Origin: Alphaproteobacteria bacterium
Lineage (GTDB): Bacteria > Pseudomonadota > Alphaproteobacteria > Parvibaculales > Parvibaculaceae
Assembly (NCBI GenBank): GCA_021775935.1
Contig: JAJFGY010000065.1
Span: 1-58,006, forward strand
Length of the DNA stretch: 58,006 nucleotides
Direction: 5' to 3'
Each line of letters opens with the position of its first letter. The stretch's first letter is position 1. This document shows, one piece after another, positions 1,198 through 18,479 of this stretch. The notes beneath the pieces are model-generated. The model made no database searches and was not told where the DNA came from. It worked only from the letters and a program-made list of their open reading frames with translations. Both the position numbers and the translations under genes were made by a program.

Positions 1198-2439
1198 TTA
1201 CGCGTCTGCCCCATCCCGGGCGATCATCGCGCGCTCGGCATCGATAATGAAGTTTCGGTTGAGCGGCACCGCGTCCCGCGCTGGCGAGAGCAAAAGCTGA
1301 AACACCATGTTGGAGCCATGCAGGAAACCAAGCTCGGCCGCGCCCAGATAAAACTCCCACATCCGGCAAAAGCGTTCGTCATAAAGCTCCGCCGCCTTGG
1401 CACGGTTTGCCGTAAAGCGCGTGCGCCAGTCCCGAAGCGTGTAATAATAATGGAGGCGAAGCACCTCCATATCATCCACCCACAGACCCTGACGCTCCAA
1501 TGCCTCAAAGGTTTCAGAGAGCGCGGGCACATAGCCGCCCGGGAAAATATACTTCCGAAAGAAGGGCCCGGTTGTGCCGGGCTGCGTGCTGCGGCCAATG
1601 GAATGGATGAAGGCATAGCCGTCGGGCTTCAAGAGATCGCGCACGGTGCCGAAATAATCATCAAAGTGGCCAATGCCCACATGCTCCATCATGCCCACAG
1701 ACACGACCCGGTCGAACTGGCCCTTATATTCCCGGTAGTCTTTCAGCACGAAATCAACTTTGTCAGCGACACCAGCTTCTTCGGCTTTTTGTTCCGCAAT
1801 CGCGACCTGTTCCGGCGAGACATTGAGCGAGGTGACGTGCGCACCTTCCTTGGCCATGCGAATGGCAAAGGCACCCCAGCCGCCGCCAATCTCCAGCACA
1901 CTCATGCCGGGTTTCAGGCCGAGCTTCGCGGTGGCGCGGGTGAGCTTTGCCGCCTGGGCATCTTCTAAAGACGTGTCGGGCGTTTCATAAAACGCGCAGG
2001 TATAGTTCAGGTCCTCATCCAGGAAGAGCTGATACATCTCTGTGGAGAGATCATAATGGGAGCGCGCCTGCTTCTTGGCATTGTCCACATCATTCGCCTG
2101 TTGGCGACGGCGCATGGAGCGCCAGGCGCGACGAAGCCCGCCTTGCACCTTGTGGCTGGCCAGCGGCCCGCGATTGATGGAGAAGAGAAAGAGAAGATCG
2201 TAACAGCCCGACCCGGCCTCGAATGTGAGCCCGCCATCCATATAGGCTTCAGCGGCAATAAGTTCCGGGTTGAGGAAGAGCTTCCACTTCAACGACTTGT
2301 CGTGAAGCCGCATGGTGACATGAACCTGCCCGTCACCATCGCTGGCGGTTCCAAACTCATGCTGAGACCCGTCCACATCATAAACCGTGAGACGCCCGGT
2401 CTGAACAAACGTGTTCAGCAAATTACTCAATGGCCACAT
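1198..2439 (-). CDS. cfa: Cyclopropane-fatty-acyl-phospholipid synthase
   Basis: The enzyme transfers a methylene group from S-adenosylmethionine to the double bond of unsaturated acyl chains in membrane phospholipids. The product is 413 residues from the ATG at 2439 (a TTG two codons upstream is possible), close to the usual 380-420. The SAM-binding motif VLEIGGGWGAFA stands around residues 181-192. The family signatures YDLSTEMYQLFLDEDLNYTCA and a C-terminal RTF/RMWEFYL region are present. It lies upstream of the yjbR-type gene in a short operon. Cyclopropanation usually belongs to stationary phase and stress; no promoter was identified. Confidence 0.95.
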   Translation of the reverse strand: MWPLSNLLNTFVQTGRLTVYDVDGSQHEFGTASDGDGQVHVTMRLHDKSLKWKLFLNPELIAAEAYMDGGLTFEAGSGCYDLLFLFSINRGPLASHKVQGGLRRAWRSMRRRQQANDVDNAKKQARSHYDLSTEMYQLFLDEDLNYTCAFYETPDTSLEDAQAAKLTRATAKLGLKPGMSVLEIGGGWGAFAIRMAKEGAHVTSLNVSPEQVAIAEQKAEEAGVADKVDFVLKDYREYKGQFDRVVSVGMMEHVGIGHFDDYFGTVRDLLKPDGYAFIHSIGRSTQPGTTGPFFRKYIFPGGYVPALSETFEALERQGLWVDDMEVLRLHYYYTLRDWRTRFTANRAKAAELYDERFCRMWEFYLGAAELGFLHGSNMVFQLLLSPARDAVPLNRNFIIDAERAMIARDGADA

Positions 2440-2534
2440 GATCAAAAAAGCCCCTCAATTTTCTCCGACGGCGACTTTAGAACATTAGGATCGAGCGCGC
2501 AGTTCAAATTGTGGCCGGACTTCACTCTATACTC

Positions 2535-2571
2535 ATCCGTCACCACCCGACTTGTTCGGGGAAATCAAGGA
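2535..2571 (+). repeat. Degenerate copy of the dispersed palindromic repeat
   Basis: The stretch GTCACCACCCGACTTGTTCG (from 2539) has the plan of the right half of the repeat at 2601-2701: a GTCA(C/T)CCC end and a CCCGA/TCGGG stem around an ACTTGT core. It reads as an eroded member of the same family. Confidence 0.5.
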
Positions 2572-2600
2572 TAAGAGACGACGGCGTCACGGTTTTAAGT

Positions 2601-2701
2601 TGTCATCCCGGCCGCAAAGGCTTTTGTGAGCCGGGATCCATTCTGAATCAGACGAAAACGAGAAAGCCCCGATGGACCCCGGACCAAGTCCGGGGTGACA
2701 G
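2601..2701 (+). repeat. Composite palindromic intergenic repeat (alphaproteobacterial REP-like)
   Basis: Two hairpins lie side by side. The left has TCATCCCGGC facing GCCGGGAT; the right has ACCCCGGAC facing GTCCGGGGT. The outer ends TGTCA and TGACA are also complementary. Elements ending in GTCCGGGGTGACA are scattered through many alphaproteobacterial genomes between genes. It occupies most of the non-coding 2440-2930 stretch, in which I see no gene. Confidence 0.7.
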
Positions 2702-2930
2702 GACGGTTGGGCTAAACCAATTGCGCAGCCCCGAACCTCATCCAAGCAAAGGGGAAGCGCCGCCCCAGGATTGGCAAGTCACCAGTCTTGAGGTTAGTTG
2801 TAGGTTGAAGTGTCTGAAATCAAAAGCGAGAAATTGCCGAATGAACGATCAACGTCAACCATGCGGACGAAGCAGACTTTGACTTCATAACTAATACTTG
2901 AGCGCATATAGTCAGGCAAAGGGGTAACCT

Positions 2931-3419
2931 ATGAGCCAGGACTTGGTTGACGTTCTCCAAGCGGAAATTGACTCGTGTTGGGCAAGGACTGGCTTGGGTA
3001 GATCTGTGAAAGTTCAAATAGCTCGCCAAGACGATGGTGGTCCACATGTCGAAATTGTCTCAGATCGTTATGAAATTGTCATCACAGAACGCGGCAGTGA
3101 AACTAGAAGGTTCTCGGGACTTTCACTTTCAGAAGCCGCTAGGTGGTACCTTTTTGATAAGGCCAGCAGTCACGCGCAGTCGAGGGAAGTAAAGGAGCGA
3201 CAAGCGCCCGAGAATGCTCCCTCAATTCCATTTGGACTTAAAGACGACGGCTATTCACGCTGGAATTGGATGGCACCAACCATAGAAACGATGCAGCGCA
3301 TTTCGCCAAGTTACGGGGAATGGGCGCGCCAAAACTACTCTGCGGTACTACGCCAAGCACCACTCCAAGGATATGAAATACGAAATGCCCGCTGGCCTCT
3401 TCTGCCGCAATTGGAATAA
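2931..3419 (+). CDS. Orphan hypothetical protein, possible Imm63-type immunity protein
   Basis: The 162-residue soluble protein has no signal peptide or membrane span. The order of its motifs (a strand ending YEIVITERGSE, then LSEAARWYLFDKASSHAQ, then an Arg/Trp segment WNWMAPTIETMQRISPSYGEWA) recalls Imm63 immunity proteins of polymorphic toxin systems, which carry a xERG strand and a DLDELLYWIF-like helix. This is resemblance from memory, not a search result. Base composition and codon choice are more AT-rich than the neighbours. No toxin gene is adjacent: the gene stands between palindromic repeats and a tRNA relic, consistent with an acquired orphan. A GGGGT precedes the ATG. Confidence 0.5.
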   Translation: MSQDLVDVLQAEIDSCWARTGLGRSVKVQIARQDDGGPHVEIVSDRYEIVITERGSETRRFSGLSLSEAARWYLFDKASSHAQSREVKERQAPENAPSIPFGLKDDGYSRWNWMAPTIETMQRISPSYGEWARQNYSAVLRQAPLQGYEIRNARWPLLPQLE

Positions 3420-3631
3420 TCAATTTAGGCTCAAACTGCCGTCACCGCTTGAGAAGCACTATGCATCGAAGGCAAATCACCAATCCCGCCAGCGCAATAG
3501 TACGATGCTCTACCAATCAAAAGAGCAACGCGTGAAAGCAAACAGGTCCGAGAAAATTGGTAGGGCTTCGTAGGACGTGAAAATCGGCACCCTTACCTAC
3601 TAAAATTGTGCTGTAAAATCAGAAGGTCAAC
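3420..3631. other. Non-coding spacer between the orphan gene and the tRNA relic
   Basis: I see no gene here. The stretch is AT-rich like the orphan gene. Around 3508-3532 the minus strand reads as a possible D-arm (GCTC ... TTGGTA GAGC), but no anticodon or T arm follows, so I do not call a tRNA. Confidence 0.4.
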
Positions 3632-3707
3632 TGGTACCGCAAGGGTGACTTGAAAACCCGCTCCCATCATTAAAAATGATGTGCTCTACCAACTGAGCTG
3701 AAACAAA
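3632..3707 (-). pseudogene. Decayed tRNA-Thr copy (tRNA pseudogene, anticodon now TTT)
   Basis: On the minus strand this 76-base stretch aligns without gaps to the intact tRNA-Thr(CGT) at 5161-5236; I count 62 of 76 identical positions. The D arm (GCTCAGTTGGTAGAGC) and the anticodon stem (CATCA/TGATG) are unchanged and the CCA end remains. The acceptor stem is broken (TTTGTTT facing TTGCGGT), the T stem has lost its 53-61 pair, and the loop reads TTTTTAA so the anticodon would be UUU (Lys). Genuine alphaproteobacterial tRNA-Lys has a different anticodon stem, so this is a mutated duplicate rather than tRNA-Lys. Confidence 0.75.
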
Positions 3708-3717
3708 CGTCTTCGCT

Positions 3718-4320
3718 TCACGATGGGACAGACGCCACCTCACCCCCACCAAACCGAACTTTCCAAACCCGATACACTTCCAACACTGCCAGCGGAACAA
3801 AGTGGGCGAGCGCGCCGCCAAACGTGTTGTGGATGGTGATCCAGTGGAGCAGCGTCATGATCGCGGCGAGATAGACCAGCCGCTGCAGAGTTTGCCAGCC
3901 GGGCCCCATCAGCCTGACCGACGCCGCGTTAGATGTGAGCGCCAAAGGCACAAAGATCAGAAACGCAACCCAGCCCGTCCAGATGCCAAGCTTCATGAAA
4001 TCAGCCGCCACAGCGCTGAGCGAGCCCAGATCAATCACATAATAAAGCGTGTGGAGTGCCCCATACCCGAACGCCGCAACCCCCAGATAGCGCCGCCGCG
4101 CCATCAGCCAGCGGACCCAAGCCGCGCCCGGAAACATCAGGCGCAAGGGTGTCAACATCATCGCGATGATCATGAAGCGCGCGGCAAATTCCCCCGTCGG
4201 ATGCAACAGACTTTCCAGGTCGCGTCCGTTAAGGGCGCCCGCAATCATGCCCGTAGACGGCAAAGCAAGGAGCGCCCAGAAAAAGAGAGGGGAATTAAGA
4301 ATTGCTTTGAGGGAAGTCAT
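3718..4320 (-). CDS. Ferric reductase-like heme-binding membrane protein (MsrQ-like)
   Basis: The product is about 200 residues with five or six hydrophobic spans. It shows the ferric-reductase-like transmembrane pattern: RRYLGVAAFGYGALHTLYYV with a His in the span, then LQRLVYLAAIMTLLHWITIHN with further His residues. These match the heme b ligands of MsrQ/YedZ-type proteins, which pass electrons across the inner membrane. MsrQ normally pairs with the molybdoenzyme MsrP, but no msrP lies nearby; the sulfite oxidase at 31679 has its own cytochrome. I start at the ATG at 4320 (MTSLKAIL); an in-frame ATG at 4371 would add 17 residues without a better ribosome site. The gene follows tspO on the same strand after a 208-bp gap. 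Confidence 0.75.
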   Translation of the reverse strand: MTSLKAILNSPLFFWALLALPSTGMIAGALNGRDLESLLHPTGEFAARFMIIAMMLTPLRLMFPGAAWVRWLMARRRYLGVAAFGYGALHTLYYVIDLGSLSAVAADFMKLGIWTGWVAFLIFVPLALTSNAASVRLMGPGWQTLQRLVYLAAIMTLLHWITIHNTFGGALAHFVPLAVLEVYRVWKVRFGGGEVASVPS

Positions 4321-4528
4321 GTGTGGGCTGGATCCTTGGAAAAGCAAGACAGGCCCCGCGCGAACCTGCATGATTCAAGGATAGGAACGCGCAGCCGCTC
4401 CTTCCAGAAAAACTCTGTTACAGATTGTAATAAGGGACGCACGAGCGCGCCGCCTCGACGCCCCTCAGACCATCAGTCAGCTTTGACCACGCCGCACACA
4501 GACCGGAACAACGATCCACGCTCCACGC

Positions 4529-4990
4529 CTATCCCGGCATGTTGAGCAGGACAATCGCGCTGTTCAGCACTGTCGCAAACCCGACCCACGCGGCGTAGGG
4601 AACAAACAGCACGGCGGACAGGCCATCCCGACGACTTGCCGATCTTATGAATTGAAGAATGGCCAGGAACAGGCACACGATTACGATGAGGGCCCATACA
4701 GGCTCCTGAGCGGCAAAAAAGAGGGGAGACCACAGGAAGTTCAAACCCAATTGCAAAACCCAAAGGCCCATCAAGGGCCCCGTATCCTCACGGTGCCAAA
4801 CCCGCCACCCAACAAACGCAATCATCAGGTACAAGACGGTCCATACCGGCCCGAACACCCAGCTGGGTGGATTGAAGAACGGCTTTTCCAGGTCGCTATA
4901 CCAGTCCCCCGGAACGGTAAGCGTCCCGATCGCTATACCACCACCCATCACCACCAGCAGGAACACTGCAAACGTGACCGTCTTACTCAT
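4529..4990 (-). CDS. tspO: TspO/MBR family tryptophan-rich sensory protein
   Basis: The 153-residue protein has five predicted transmembrane helices and the TspO hallmarks: WYSDLEKPFFNPPSWVFGPVWTVLYLMI near the N-terminus, WVLQLGLNFLWSPLFF in the middle, and PYAAWVGFATVLNSAI at the end. TspO proteins bind porphyrins and other tetrapyrroles in the membrane and modulate tetrapyrrole-linked gene expression or photo-oxidative stress in alphaproteobacteria. The heme gene block starts 400 bp to the right on the same strand beyond tRNA-Thr, which fits such a role. An AGGAGG-like GGAGGTACC lies just upstream of the ATG. Confidence 0.93.
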   Translation of the reverse strand: MSKTVTFAVFLLVVMGGGIAIGTLTVPGDWYSDLEKPFFNPPSWVFGPVWTVLYLMIAFVGWRVWHREDTGPLMGLWVLQLGLNFLWSPLFFAAQEPVWALIVIVCLFLAILQFIRSASRRDGLSAVLFVPYAAWVGFATVLNSAIVLLNMPG

Positions 4991-5160
4991 GTTGAAGGTA
5001 CCTCCTGTGATGCCAACCGGGGAAGAAGGCCGTTAACGACCCTGATCCGACCAGTACCCTCCCCTCATGCGCACGGTTTGGGTCATCCACTGCCTGGCTA
5101 TCAAGCGATATAGATCGCGGTCGCCGCTTTTCAAAGTCACAGGTGGATTTAGGAGTGAAA

Positions 5161-5236
5161 TGGTGCCGCTTGGGTGATTTGAACACCCGACCCCATCATT
5201 ACGAATGATGTGCTCTACCAACTGAGCTAAAGCGGC
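5161..5236 (-). tRNA. tRNA-Thr (anticodon CGT)
   Basis: On the minus strand all four arms fold: acceptor GCCGCTT/AAGCGGC, D stem GCTC/GAGC, anticodon stem CATCA/TGATG with loop TTCGTAA (anticodon CGT, reads ACG), and T stem GGGTG/CACCC with TTCAAAT. The encoded ACCA end is present. A degenerate copy in the same orientation lies at 3632-3707. Confidence 0.96.
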
Positions 5237-5382: not shown

Positions 5383-6450
5383 TTACTCCCCGCAATTATG
5401 CGGTTCAGGTACCGGCGCACCGTCAACCGCCGGGGAGCCTCCACATAAAACTGCCGGTGGCGCCGGGGCTGCTTGGGGCTTGAGATTGACCTTTGCCATG
5501 AAGGCGCGGACTTCCGCCGCACTTTCGCCCGGCACTTCTTCCATGGCGATGTGACCCACATTCTCATAAATCACGAGCTTGGCCTGGGGCAGCGCCTCTT
5601 TCATTTTATGCGCACTCTCAACCGGGATCAGCGGATCATTCTCACCCCAGATAATCAGCGCTGGCAGATCAATAGTGGGCACCTGCTCAGCCAGGGTCGC
5701 ATCCGCAACGCCACGTTCAGCATACCCCTGGAAGCGCGTGCGCGTCGCACCGCGATTGCCATCATGAAGCGTCATATTGAAATAGCGATCGATCATCGCC
5801 TCGGTGACAAGACTGTCATCTTCAATGGAGTGCTTCAGGCCATCCTCAACAATCGAGCGCGGCGTGATCACCAGCATCAGCTGATTAACAACCGGCGTTG
5901 CCGCAAGACGAAACGCCAGCGGCGGAGAGGCATTGCCCACATTGCGCGGCATGCCGCTGGAGGAGACCGGAATAATGCCCTTGAGATCATCCCCATGGGT
6001 CACCGCATATTGCAGCGTGACACCGCCGCCCATGGAATTGCCGCCCATGACAAAATCTTCAAGGCCCAGATGCGTCACCAGCTCTTTGACGAAAGCGACT
6101 TGTCCCGCGCGCGTGTAATCATCGCTCTCATGAGTGCCCGTCAAACCGTGGCCCGGCAGGTCCAGCGTGATGACGCGATAATCATCGCTCAGAATTTCAA
6201 CCCAGGGCTCCCACGTGTGAAGCGAGGCATTGGATCCATGCACAAGCAGAAGCACAGGACCATCGCTCTTGCCCTCATCGCGAAAGTGCACCGTCGCGCC
6301 AGACGGCAGCGTCACGAATTGCGACGCCTCACTTGCATATTGGGGCAACAGCTCTTCGGTGGATTTATCAAGCGCACCCCATAGAGCAAAAAGGGCAATG
6401 AATGCAATCAGCACCAGGGCAATGAGCCCGCCTAAAATCCGACCTACCAT
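5383..6450 (-). CDS. Alpha/beta hydrolase, membrane-anchored
   Basis: The 355-residue protein begins with a hydrophobic helix (LGGLIALVLIAFIALFALWG, residues 8-27), so it is probably held in or exported across the inner membrane. The alpha/beta hydrolase core follows: the oxyanion-hole HGSNAS, nucleophile elbow GNSMGG (Ser around residue 140), acid in WGENDPLIP and histidine in NVGHIAMEE. The Pro/Ala-rich C-terminal tail ends in CGGSPAVDGAPVP. It could act on an ester, lactone or C-C bond substrate; nothing visible fixes this. The start overlaps the end of hemY by 7 bp with an AGAGGAGAG site inside hemY, so it is translated from the heme operon message. Confidence 0.88.
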   Translation of the reverse strand: MVGRILGGLIALVLIAFIALFALWGALDKSTEELLPQYASEASQFVTLPSGATVHFRDEGKSDGPVLLLVHGSNASLHTWEPWVEILSDDYRVITLDLPGHGLTGTHESDDYTRAGQVAFVKELVTHLGLEDFVMGGNSMGGGVTLQYAVTHGDDLKGIIPVSSSGMPRNVGNASPPLAFRLAATPVVNQLMLVITPRSIVEDGLKHSIEDDSLVTEAMIDRYFNMTLHDGNRGATRTRFQGYAERGVADATLAEQVPTIDLPALIIWGENDPLIPVESAHKMKEALPQAKLVIYENVGHIAMEEVPGESAAEVRAFMAKVNLKPQAAPAPPAVLCGGSPAVDGAPVPEPHNCGE

Positions 6451-13668: not shown

Positions 13669-14667
13669 ATGACGACGATCAGAACAATAGCCGTGGTTGG
13701 GGGCGGCGCGTGGGGAACGGCTTTGGCAACGGTTGCAGCCCGGGCTGGACGCAATGTCCTTCTATGGGCCCATGAGGCAGACGTTGCAGAAGCGATCAAC
13801 AGCTCTCATGAAAACACCACCTATCTGCCCGGTGTCCTACTTGATCCCGCGATTAAGGCAACGAGTGAGATGAGTGATCTCATCGGCACCGATGCATGCC
13901 TCCTCGTCCCACCCGCCCAGCACCTGCGTACCGTCACCAAAGACCTGCACGACGTTCTGCAAAAAGGGACACTGGTTGCAATTTGCGCGAAAGGCGTTGA
14001 GCAAAACTCAGGCAAGCTGATGAGCGAGATCGTGAAGGAAACCCTGCCCGATGCCATTCCTGCCATTCTGTCCGGTCCAAGCTTCGCAGCAGACGTGGCC
14101 CGTGGGCTGCCGACGGCGGTGACTTTGGCCTGTTCAGAAGAAAGTGCAGCGCTTTCCCTAGTGGATGCAATTGGGTCTCCTACATTTCGCCCCTATTGGA
14201 CATCAGATGTGATCGGCACCCAAATTGGGGGCGCCATAAAAAACGTACTCGCAATCGCCTGCGGCATTGTCGAGGGCAAAAAGCTTGGCGAAAGTGCGCG
14301 GGCGGCTCTGACTGCGCGCGGCTTTGCTGAAATGGTGCGCCTGGGAAAACGTTTGGGGGCAACACCGGAAACCATGTCAGGCCTGTCAGGCCTTGGCGAC
14401 CTCATTCTCACCTGTTCGAGCACTCAAAGCCGCAACATGTCTTTGGGCAGAGCCTTGGGATCGGGAACGCCGCTCAAAGAGATCCTGGAGGGTCGCAATT
14501 CAGTTGCAGAAGGTGTGCATACGGCGGCAGCGATTAAGACCATGGGTGCCAAGAGGCATTTGGACATGCCGATCTGCGATGCCGTCGCCGATATTGTCTC
14601 GGGCATTCAGGGTGTGGATGACGCAATCACATCCCTGCTTGCCCGCCCGTTTACAGCAGAGGGTTGA
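13669..14667 (+). CDS. gpsA: NAD(P)-dependent glycerol-3-phosphate dehydrogenase
   Basis: The enzyme reduces dihydroxyacetone phosphate to sn-glycerol-3-phosphate for phospholipid synthesis. The 332-residue protein has the dinucleotide-binding VVGGGAWGTALA (residues 9-20), AICAKGVEQ, the catalytic-lysine region IGGAIKNVLAIACGIVEG and LSGLGDLILTCSS. A GAGGTG lies before the ATG. It is followed by the YciI-type gene 67 bp downstream, an arrangement seen with tsaD in other alphaproteobacteria. Confidence 0.97.
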   Translation: MTTIRTIAVVGGGAWGTALATVAARAGRNVLLWAHEADVAEAINSSHENTTYLPGVLLDPAIKATSEMSDLIGTDACLLVPPAQHLRTVTKDLHDVLQKGTLVAICAKGVEQNSGKLMSEIVKETLPDAIPAILSGPSFAADVARGLPTAVTLACSEESAALSLVDAIGSPTFRPYWTSDVIGTQIGGAIKNVLAIACGIVEGKKLGESARAALTARGFAEMVRLGKRLGATPETMSGLSGLGDLILTCSSTQSRNMSLGRALGSGTPLKEILEGRNSVAEGVHTAAAIKTMGAKRHLDMPICDAVADIVSGIQGVDDAITSLLARPFTAEG

Positions 14668-17243: not shown

Positions 17244-18479
17244 ATGACGAGCGAAGATAAGAAACCATCCCCAAATGGCGCACTAGAGGGTATCCGCGTG
17301 GTCGATCTCACCAGCGTCGTCCTGGGCGCCTACGCGACCGCCCTGCTGGGTGACATGGGCGCTGACGTCATCAAGATCGAAAGCCCCAGTCCCAAAAACG
17401 GTCAGGGCGGCGACATTATGCGCTGGGCGGGCGACACACCGTCAGGTGAGGCTTCGGGCCTTGGCCCCATGTTCCTCACCATCAACCGCAACAAACGCTC
17501 TGTGCTGCTTGATTTGAAAAAACAGGCGGCCCGCGACGCGCTTCTCAAGCTCATCGCAACCGCCGATGTCTTTGCCGCAAACGTTCGCTATGACGGTCTC
17601 AAACGCTTGGGGCTTTCCTATGAAGACGTAAAAGCCGTGAAGCCTGACATCGTCTATGTCATTGGCACGGGGTATGGCGAAGACGGACCATATGGCGGCA
17701 GACCCGCTTACGATGACATGATCCAGGCGGCATCCGGCATCTCTTCCATGATGAGCGAAGTCGACGGCGACCCGCGTCCCCGGTTTTTTCCGACCCTCAT
17801 TGCCGATAAGACGACAGGCCTTTTCATGGCAAATGCCATCGTCACAGCGCTCTTCCACAAAGAACGCACAGGCGAAGGCCAGTTTGTGGAAGTGCCCATG
17901 ATGGAAAGCATGGTCTCTTTTCTGCTTGCAGAACATCTCTACGGCGAAACCTATGACCCGCCGACGGGACCCATCGGTTATGTGCGCGTAACCGCGCCAG
18001 ATCGCAAACCCTACAAAACGGCCGACGGATACATCGCCATCCTTCCCTACTCAGACCAGCAATGGCGCGATTTCTTCAACTTGGGAGGAAAGCCGGATCT
18101 CTTTGAGACCGACGCCCGCTTTGCGACTTACGAAAACCGCACCCGCAACATTCAGGGTCTCTACGCCATGGTGGAAGAAGTCACCGTGCACAAAACAACC
18201 GCAGAATGGGAAAAGGAGTTAGGCGCCAATGACATTCCCCATGCACGCGTCAACAAGTTGGGCGATCTCCGCCACGATCCTCATCTTGATGCCGTCGGTC
18301 TTTTTGAAAAGCGCAACCACCCCCATGAAGGCCCCTATTGGAGCCTCAATCACCCTGTGAACTATGAGGGAAGCCCCGCAAGTGTACGACGCGATGCACC
18401 TGTGCTCGGTGAGCACACCCAGGAAGTCATGAAAGAGGCGGGGTTGAATGAGACAGAGATTGCCGCTTTGGGTGACTAA
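17244..18479 (+). CDS. CaiB/BaiF (family III) CoA-transferase
   Basis: The 411-residue protein has the family III architecture: RVVDLTSVVLGAYATALLGDMGADVIKIE at the N-terminus, NRNKRSVLLDLK, and GGRPAYDDMIQAASG, where an Asp acts as the covalent carboxylate nucleophile. The enzyme moves CoA from an acyl-CoA to a free acid. The substrate cannot be read from the sequence. It follows the GNAT gene closely and overlaps the end of the convergent GGDEF/EAL gene by 4 bp. Confidence 0.95.
   Translation: MTSEDKKPSPNGALEGIRVVDLTSVVLGAYATALLGDMGADVIKIESPSPKNGQGGDIMRWAGDTPSGEASGLGPMFLTINRNKRSVLLDLKKQAARDALLKLIATADVFAANVRYDGLKRLGLSYEDVKAVKPDIVYVIGTGYGEDGPYGGRPAYDDMIQAASGISSMMSEVDGDPRPRFFPTLIADKTTGLFMANAIVTALFHKERTGEGQFVEVPMMESMVSFLLAEHLYGETYDPPTGPIGYVRVTAPDRKPYKTADGYIAILPYSDQQWRDFFNLGGKPDLFETDARFATYENRTRNIQGLYAMVEEVTVHKTTAEWEKELGANDIPHARVNKLGDLRHDPHLDAVGLFEKRNHPHEGPYWSLNHPVNYEGSPASVRRDAPVLGEHTQEVMKEAGLNETEIAALGD

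Follow-up and report, generated by a model that had tools for sequence, protein, structure and literature searches.

A decayed full-length tRNA-Thr copy as the probable remnant of a tRNA-carrying integrative element in a Parvibaculaceae genome

In the stretch of 58,006 nucleotides from a member of the Parvibaculaceae that was analysed here as a whole (the window), an intact tRNA-Thr(CGT) gene is accompanied by a degenerate copy of itself, termed the relic, located 1.5 kb away on the same (minus) strand. The question raised by this locus is how a second, decayed tRNA came to lie there. The initial annotation of the sequence had considered either a segmental duplication or an old integration that copied the tRNA. 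The features of the locus, together with those of two integrative elements found in related genomes, are listed in Table 1.

Table 1. Features of the tRNA-Thr(CGT) locus and of related elements; positions refer to the window unless another locus is named. G001–G006 are the congeners of the window's own genome, G000.
Feature	Position	Strand	Basis or remark
Cyclopropane-fatty-acid-synthase-like gene (CFA), anchor opposite the hydrolase gene	1198..2445	-	Conserved neighbour
Genome-specific block	2446..3735		Left border near 3735 (BLAST); right border by inspection, 2446 to about 2530
Orphan ORF, 162 aa, weakly Imm63-like	2931..3419	+	Pfam Imm63, E 0.0066, below cut-off
One-mismatch copy of TTAGTAGG	3557..3564	+	10 bp start to start from the copy at 3567..3574
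One-mismatch copy of TTAGTAGG	3567..3574	+	
TTAGTAGG, candidate integrase arm-type site	3596..3603	-	No other exact copy in the window; lies 28 bp beyond the 3' end of the relic
tRNA-Thr relic, anticodon TTT, acceptor stem broken	3632..3707	-	Alignment, Rfam, fold
fer, ferric-reductase-like membrane protein gene	3718..4371	-	Pfam; orthologue at the same locus in G001–G004
tspO	4529..4990	-	Pfam; also at the locus in G001 and G004
Intact tRNA-Thr(CGT), host gene	5161..5236	-	ARAGORN; Rfam 71.5 bits; 76/76 identical in G001–G004
Alpha/beta hydrolase gene, anchor upstream of the tRNA	5383..6450	-	Conserved neighbour
Element in G005	L071 6961-16504		Splits host tRNA-Thr(CGT), carries a complete copy
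Element in G006	L072 2984-17412		Splits host tRNA-Thr(CGT), carries a complete copy

The relic and the intact tRNA-Thr(CGT) gene

Alignment confirmed that the relic is a gapless, full-length copy of the host tRNA-Thr(CGT), with matches at 62 of 76 positions; if each site agreed at random with a probability of 25%, so good a match or a better one would arise with a probability of about 6e-25. As initially described, the D arm and the anticodon stem are identical; the identity is unbroken at positions 9-33 and 36-45. The 14 changes fall at positions 1, 2, 3, 5, 8, 34, 35, 46, 47, 53, 59, 66, 67 and 72, nine of them being GC to AT, and the anticodon has passed from CGT to TTT. No change was found over the 35 positions of the D arm and anticodon stem, a region picked post hoc, and all 14 lie in the other 41. 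The described breakage of the acceptor stem was borne out by inspection, with one Watson-Crick and three G-U pairs left of seven, and the Infernal alignment to the Rfam tRNA model revealed the loss of one pair in the T-stem. Scored with this model, the relic obtained 37.9 bits (gathering score 29; positions 9-63 of 71 covered) against 71.5 for the intact gene, which is the sole gene called by ARAGORN in the whole window, the relic remaining uncalled. The fold z-score of the relic is -0.96, like that of shuffled sequence, versus -4.19 for the intact tRNA. The relic therefore shows tRNA homology, broken pairing and no gene call, the criteria of a tRNA pseudogene. The broken acceptor stem and the changed anticodon are shared with ordinary bacterial tRNA pseudogenes, from which the relic differs in being accompanied by candidate element-end sites, described below.

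The BLAST match between the two copies spans tRNA positions 6-76, more than a mere end fragment of the tDNA would give. Conservation is best from tRNA position 9 to 76; as five of the 14 changes lie within the first eight bases, the true start of the copy may be near position 9, and the relic may be a long 3' part of the tRNA if those eight bases are non-homologous. Past the 3' end, homology detected by BLAST continues for six bases only, and alignment of the flanks of the two copies gave scores no higher than those of shuffled sequence (z -0.7 downstream and -0.3 upstream). The highest count of matching bases with the relic (62/76) is shared by the host tRNA and four other tRNA types, and the tRNAs carried by the elements of G005 and G006 come no closer (60 and 57 of 76, respectively). 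When 385 genomes of the class were queried with the relic, two candidates per genome being scored, eight genomes gave matches at E 1e-15 or better, with at most 88% identity outside the window; these matches were provisionally taken as ordinary tRNA genes, and a second relic may have escaped this search. Two further candidates were rejected. A third tRNA-like stretch (3506-3516, 11 bases, D arm) was equalled in score by 86 of 300 mononucleotide shuffles, and a phage or viral derivation of the relic was dismissed, with no exact match of a 25-base stretch of it in viral contigs and no phage match for the orphan ORF.

Genes around the two copies in related genomes

The ferric-reductase-like gene, fer, and tspO do lie between the two copies, as annotated from the sequence and verified with Pfam. 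They are the only recognised genes in this interval, which contains no integrase; fer ends 10 bp from the relic, and no second copy of tspO or fer was found near the locus. The locus was compared within a genus sample of seven genomes, G000 to G006, and with 20 loci fetched from 20 of the 33 family genomes outside the genus. In four of the six congeners (G001–G004) fer is found at the locus after a single tRNA identical to that of the window, in the order tRNA, sodC, fer and CFA, with tspO ahead of sodC in G001 and G004. In these genomes the relic was detected neither by BLAST nor by the covariance model at E values up to 3. The initial annotation had proposed looking in relatives for an empty site with a single tRNA: four congeners indeed possess one tRNA and no relic, but the site is not empty, fer being kept in all of them and tspO in two. 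Since none of the four congeners that keep fer has the relic, the genes between the two copies did not come to their position through it, and tspO and fer are ordinary, non-duplicated, long-term neighbours of the tRNA. The sodC gene, located between tspO or the tRNA and fer in G001–G004, is missing in the window (4372-4528).

On the upstream side, the alpha/beta hydrolase gene lies 0.1-2 kb from tRNA-Thr(CGT) or its 5' half in all seven genomes of the genus, and near the tRNA in 16 of the 20 loci of other genera, being unseen in the fetched stretch of the other four (one cut by a contig end). In contrast to the congeners, none of these 20 loci has tspO, sodC or fer beside tRNA-Thr(CGT), and these genes follow it in one clade of the genus only.

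The DNA specific to the window consists of the relic and about 1.2 kb harbouring the orphan Imm63-like gene, and this block, like the relic, is absent from all four fer-bearing congeners. Among 40 family genomes the orphan ORF is present in its own alone; tblastn retrieved three Pantoea plasmid genes annotated as Imm63 (E 1e-3 to 3e-3), and no phage match, PHROGs family or PADLOC family was obtained. No integrase was recognised in the block, and no relative of the integrases described below was detected in the window's genome at E 1e-70. Comparison of the block with 54 ORF translations from G001–G003, G005 and G006 gave a best E of 0.004, and BLAST revealed no further tRNA fragment (5' or 3' half) at the G000 locus. 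Elsewhere in the genome, sequence of the block recurs only as repeat-type stretches of 30-33 bases in four other contigs, corresponding to part of a CCCGG-rich palindromic repeat at about 2668-2703. The interval between fer and CFA (the window and L067–L070) is a variable spot, the cargo of which changes from species to species and is in part defence-like: a DndB/DpdB-like protein and a D12 adenine methylase in G004, an HNH endonuclease with other ORFs in G002, a set of smaller ORFs plus three larger ones that match no family in G003, and nothing in G001, where about 130 bp separate fer from the next gene, CFA. Elsewhere in the window, the cold-shock-gene region (350-722) reached 35.2 of 78 bits with the cspA thermoregulator model, below the gathering score, and the G004 copy of this region passes the model with 83.2 bits.

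Integrative elements of G005 and G006 and the TTAGTAGG motif

In G005 and G006 the hydrolase gene is followed by positions 1-39 of tRNA-Thr, 95-97 bp of other DNA, a complete tRNA-Thr, a primase/VapE-like gene, a tyrosine integrase, DNA methylases and, lastly, tRNA-Thr positions 31-76. The halves overlap in a 9-bp core, ATTCGTAAT, in the anticodon loop and, when rejoined in a script, give a complete tRNA-Thr(CGT) accepted by ARAGORN, so the split gene is that of the host and the whole copy is an extra one. The carried and the rejoined host tRNA are identical in G006; in G005 they differ at positions 6, 16 and 67, the changes at 6 and 67 compensating each other as a pair. Both integrases contain a phage-integrase domain and an arm-DNA-binding domain, are 62% identical to each other, and were detected at E 1e-70 in these two genomes out of 40 of the family and order.

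The element type is known from these two examples. Among 385 class genomes no close integrase was found at E 1e-60 (at most five candidates scored per genome), with one distant match of 38% identity, and the viral contigs yielded one integrase match of 31% and no exact left junction. Of 581 plasmid records matching the left end of the G006 element, none covered over 80% of the query, the best ten covering 34-56%. The only plasmid relative of the integrase at E 1e-60 (40.6% identity) is on Legionella fallonii plasmid III, which was rejected as a similar element, no tRNA being called there by ARAGORN; a recombinase-adjacent tRNA-Thr on a Sphingomonas plasmid, lacking the TTAGTAGG motif, was set aside as well.

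Three other observations concern tRNA-Thr-associated sequences in related genomes. G005 (reverse complement of L071) contains two copies of a small membrane-like protein gene (3101-3325 and 13809-14027), 41% and 59% identical to their G002 counterpart, of which one lies next to the carried tRNA and the other on the host side; its element may have captured host flank along with the tRNA. In G014 (L127, 3924-10026) an intact tRNA-Thr(CGT) is followed 6 kb downstream by a 33-base 3' copy (93.9%), with no integrase evident by eye among the listed ORFs of 120 aa or more; tRNA-Thr(CGT) is possibly an integration site in this genome too. Finally, G001 harbours a decayed 3' half of tRNA-Thr starting at the ATTCG core, in reverse orientation (L074; G001:C59, about 17433-17477), near a tRNA-Gly and 86 kb from the intact tRNA-Thr.

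In tRNA-gene islands with tyrosine integrases (Islander), a fragment at attP is reported to restore the split tRNA gene (PMC4383910). The elements of G005 and G006 share with these islands the tyrosine integrase, the crossover in the anticodon loop and the transfer of the tRNA-Thr 3' half to the opposite end, but differ in that the host gene stays split, with both halves left, and a whole tRNA lies inside. The window in turn is unlike these islands in having a decayed tRNA only, with no integrase and no 3' half, and the span from the intact tRNA to the relic shows the same orientation of the two copies but neither the integrase nor the end fragment of the Islander signature. A full-length tRNA-like sequence, the 'pseudo-tRNA', is also carried by the integrative ssrA islands of Dehalococcoides; there, however, the target is reported to be ssrA, and the sequence is tRNA-Gly-like, is situated within a coding gene at about 4.4 kb from attL and does not replace the target (PMC3146451).

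The motif TTAGTAGG was first spotted by eye at the ends of the G005 element and beside the relic, and was tested afterwards. No other 8-mer is found at every one of the four element ends, any common 8-mer being obtained in 2 of 2000 mononucleotide shuffle sets, and the motif is presumably the binding site of the N-terminal arm domain of the integrase. The window contains one exact copy (0.11 expected) and 14 copies with at most one mismatch, three of which lie within 75 bp of the relic; the Poisson chance of three such sites in 150 bp is about 8e-6. Elsewhere in the window no 60-bp stretch contains three sites, and a three-site cluster with one exact copy is unique, except for overlapping copies, among the fetched loci of at least 3 kb (1.48 Mb, partly redundant). 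Shuffling of the 100-bp flank produced an exact copy in 13 of 5000 trials and three sites with one exact in none of 5000. No copy with up to one mismatch lies within 100 bp of tRNA-Thr(CGT) at any of 26 control loci (4 of the genus, 20 of the family and 2 of plasmids; the upstream flank of L146 is cut by a contig end), and none was found within 100 bp of the intact tRNA of the window.

Within the family, the pattern TAGTAGGN4TAGTAGG was found in one genome of 40, that of G005, three times and always within the element ends, and its backward control pattern once across all 40. An inverted pair of sites follows the relic at +57/+67, both with a mismatch, and another follows the carried tRNA of G005 at +52/+63, 11 bp apart, one with a mismatch; in G006 no copy with up to one mismatch occurs in the 300 bp after the carried tRNA, the site preceding that tRNA instead. 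The likeness of the downstream flank of the relic to that of G005 is at most suggestive (z 2.3, against 1.2 for G006, with some shuffles higher), and the upstream flank gave z values of 1.1-1.3 against the element ends, with no trace of an outer end.

Age and origin of the relic

At fourfold sites, the window lineage has accumulated 0.44-0.57 substitutions since its common ancestors with G001–G004. The distance of the relic, 0.21 (0.15 if counted from position 9), is lower, so its decay began after the split from these genomes; for a neutral scar older than the split, 14 or fewer changes in 76 positions have a probability of about 0.003 or less. Such late decay is consistent with an arrival after the split and agrees less with an ancestral right attachment site of a tspO-fer segment.

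The relic probably entered as the replacement tRNA carried by an integrative element that targets tRNA-Thr, as in G005 and G006, and has since decayed. Two features of those elements are found beside fer, namely the extra whole copy of tRNA-Thr, here decayed, and neighbouring TTAGTAGG sites (one exact and two with one mismatch), while no tyrosine integrase gene was recognised and no 5' or 3' half of the target tRNA was found at a border. In the two relatives, elements of this type split the host gene within the anticodon loop and bring along a complete tRNA-Thr. In the window lineage the element, or its tRNA end, would have lodged between fer and CFA after the split from the relatives, for which either insertion at a secondary site or recombinational import of a neighbouring stretch would suffice. 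With the intact host tRNA making it redundant, the carried tRNA would then have decayed, and the integrase and the far end would have been lost, leaving the relic, the candidate arm sites and the orphan immunity-like gene. As the candidate integrase sites are situated beyond the relic, away from fer, the element-derived DNA would be that from the relic to CFA. The initially suggested old integration is thus supported as regards a link to integration, but not as regards the interval between the two copies as the inserted or duplicated unit.

A plain tRNA pseudogene, arising by ectopic duplication limited to the tRNA and subsequent decay, with the TTAGTAGG sites present by chance, would agree with the host tRNA being nearest by raw matches, although tied with four other types, with the excess of GC to AT changes (9/14), as in neutral decay, and with the lack of recognised element genes in the block. 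We regard this origin as unlikely in view of the three-site cluster, given its low chance probability, its absence from all 26 control loci and its uniqueness in the fetched sequence bar overlapping self-copies. Duplication of the tRNA together with its flanks, to which the full-length same-strand copies 1.5 kb apart might point, is unsupported, since homology stops at the tRNA ends; with neither flank alike and no second tspO or fer nearby, this first suggestion of the initial annotation is extremely improbable.

The other form of the integration proposal holds that tspO, (sodC) and fer are an old integrated segment with the intact tRNA at its left end and the relic as right attachment site. 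The restriction of these genes to one clade of the genus (0/20 loci of other genera), the position of the relic directly behind fer, homology best from position 9 on, as a displaced 3' part would show, and the use of tRNA-Thr(CGT) as an integration site in G005, G006 and possibly G014 all speak for it. It is nevertheless quite unlikely, although a weaker form, in which tspO, sodC and fer themselves reached this tRNA long ago, may hold, in line with their absence beside it in the 20 loci of other genera: the interval contains no integrase, the 10-bp gap between fer and the relic is too short for inside arm sites, the candidate sites lying outside, none of the four other fer-bearing genomes has kept the relic, which is moreover under-diverged for a neutral scar predating the split and is not an end fragment of the tDNA. 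That the relic is still a working RNA, such as a tRNA-like regulator, could explain why the 14 changes spare the D arm and anticodon stem, a region delimited post hoc; the broken acceptor stem, the lost T-stem pair, the shuffle-like fold and its absence from G001–G004 make such a role very improbable.

If the relic does derive from a G005/G006-type element, a full-length pseudo-tRNA beside arm-type sites would be the scar of a tRNA-replacing element, distinct from the end fragments sought by island finders. The published search is reported to demand an integrase and a distance of 2 kb or more from tRNA to fragment, and a scar like the relic would be passed over (PMC4383910). The elements of G005 and G006 themselves would be found by that search through the whole tRNA and the 3' half; the split 5' half, which it does not look for, is the evidence that the whole tRNA belongs to the element. 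In both genomes the host tRNA-Thr(CGT) is split and the element carries the working copy; a host that lost the element other than by precise excision would therefore be left without this tRNA. We consider the chances to be about even that there is a class of elements which bring a complete replacement tRNA instead of mending the split gene, on which the host would then depend, and whose decay would leave full-length pseudo-tRNAs behind.
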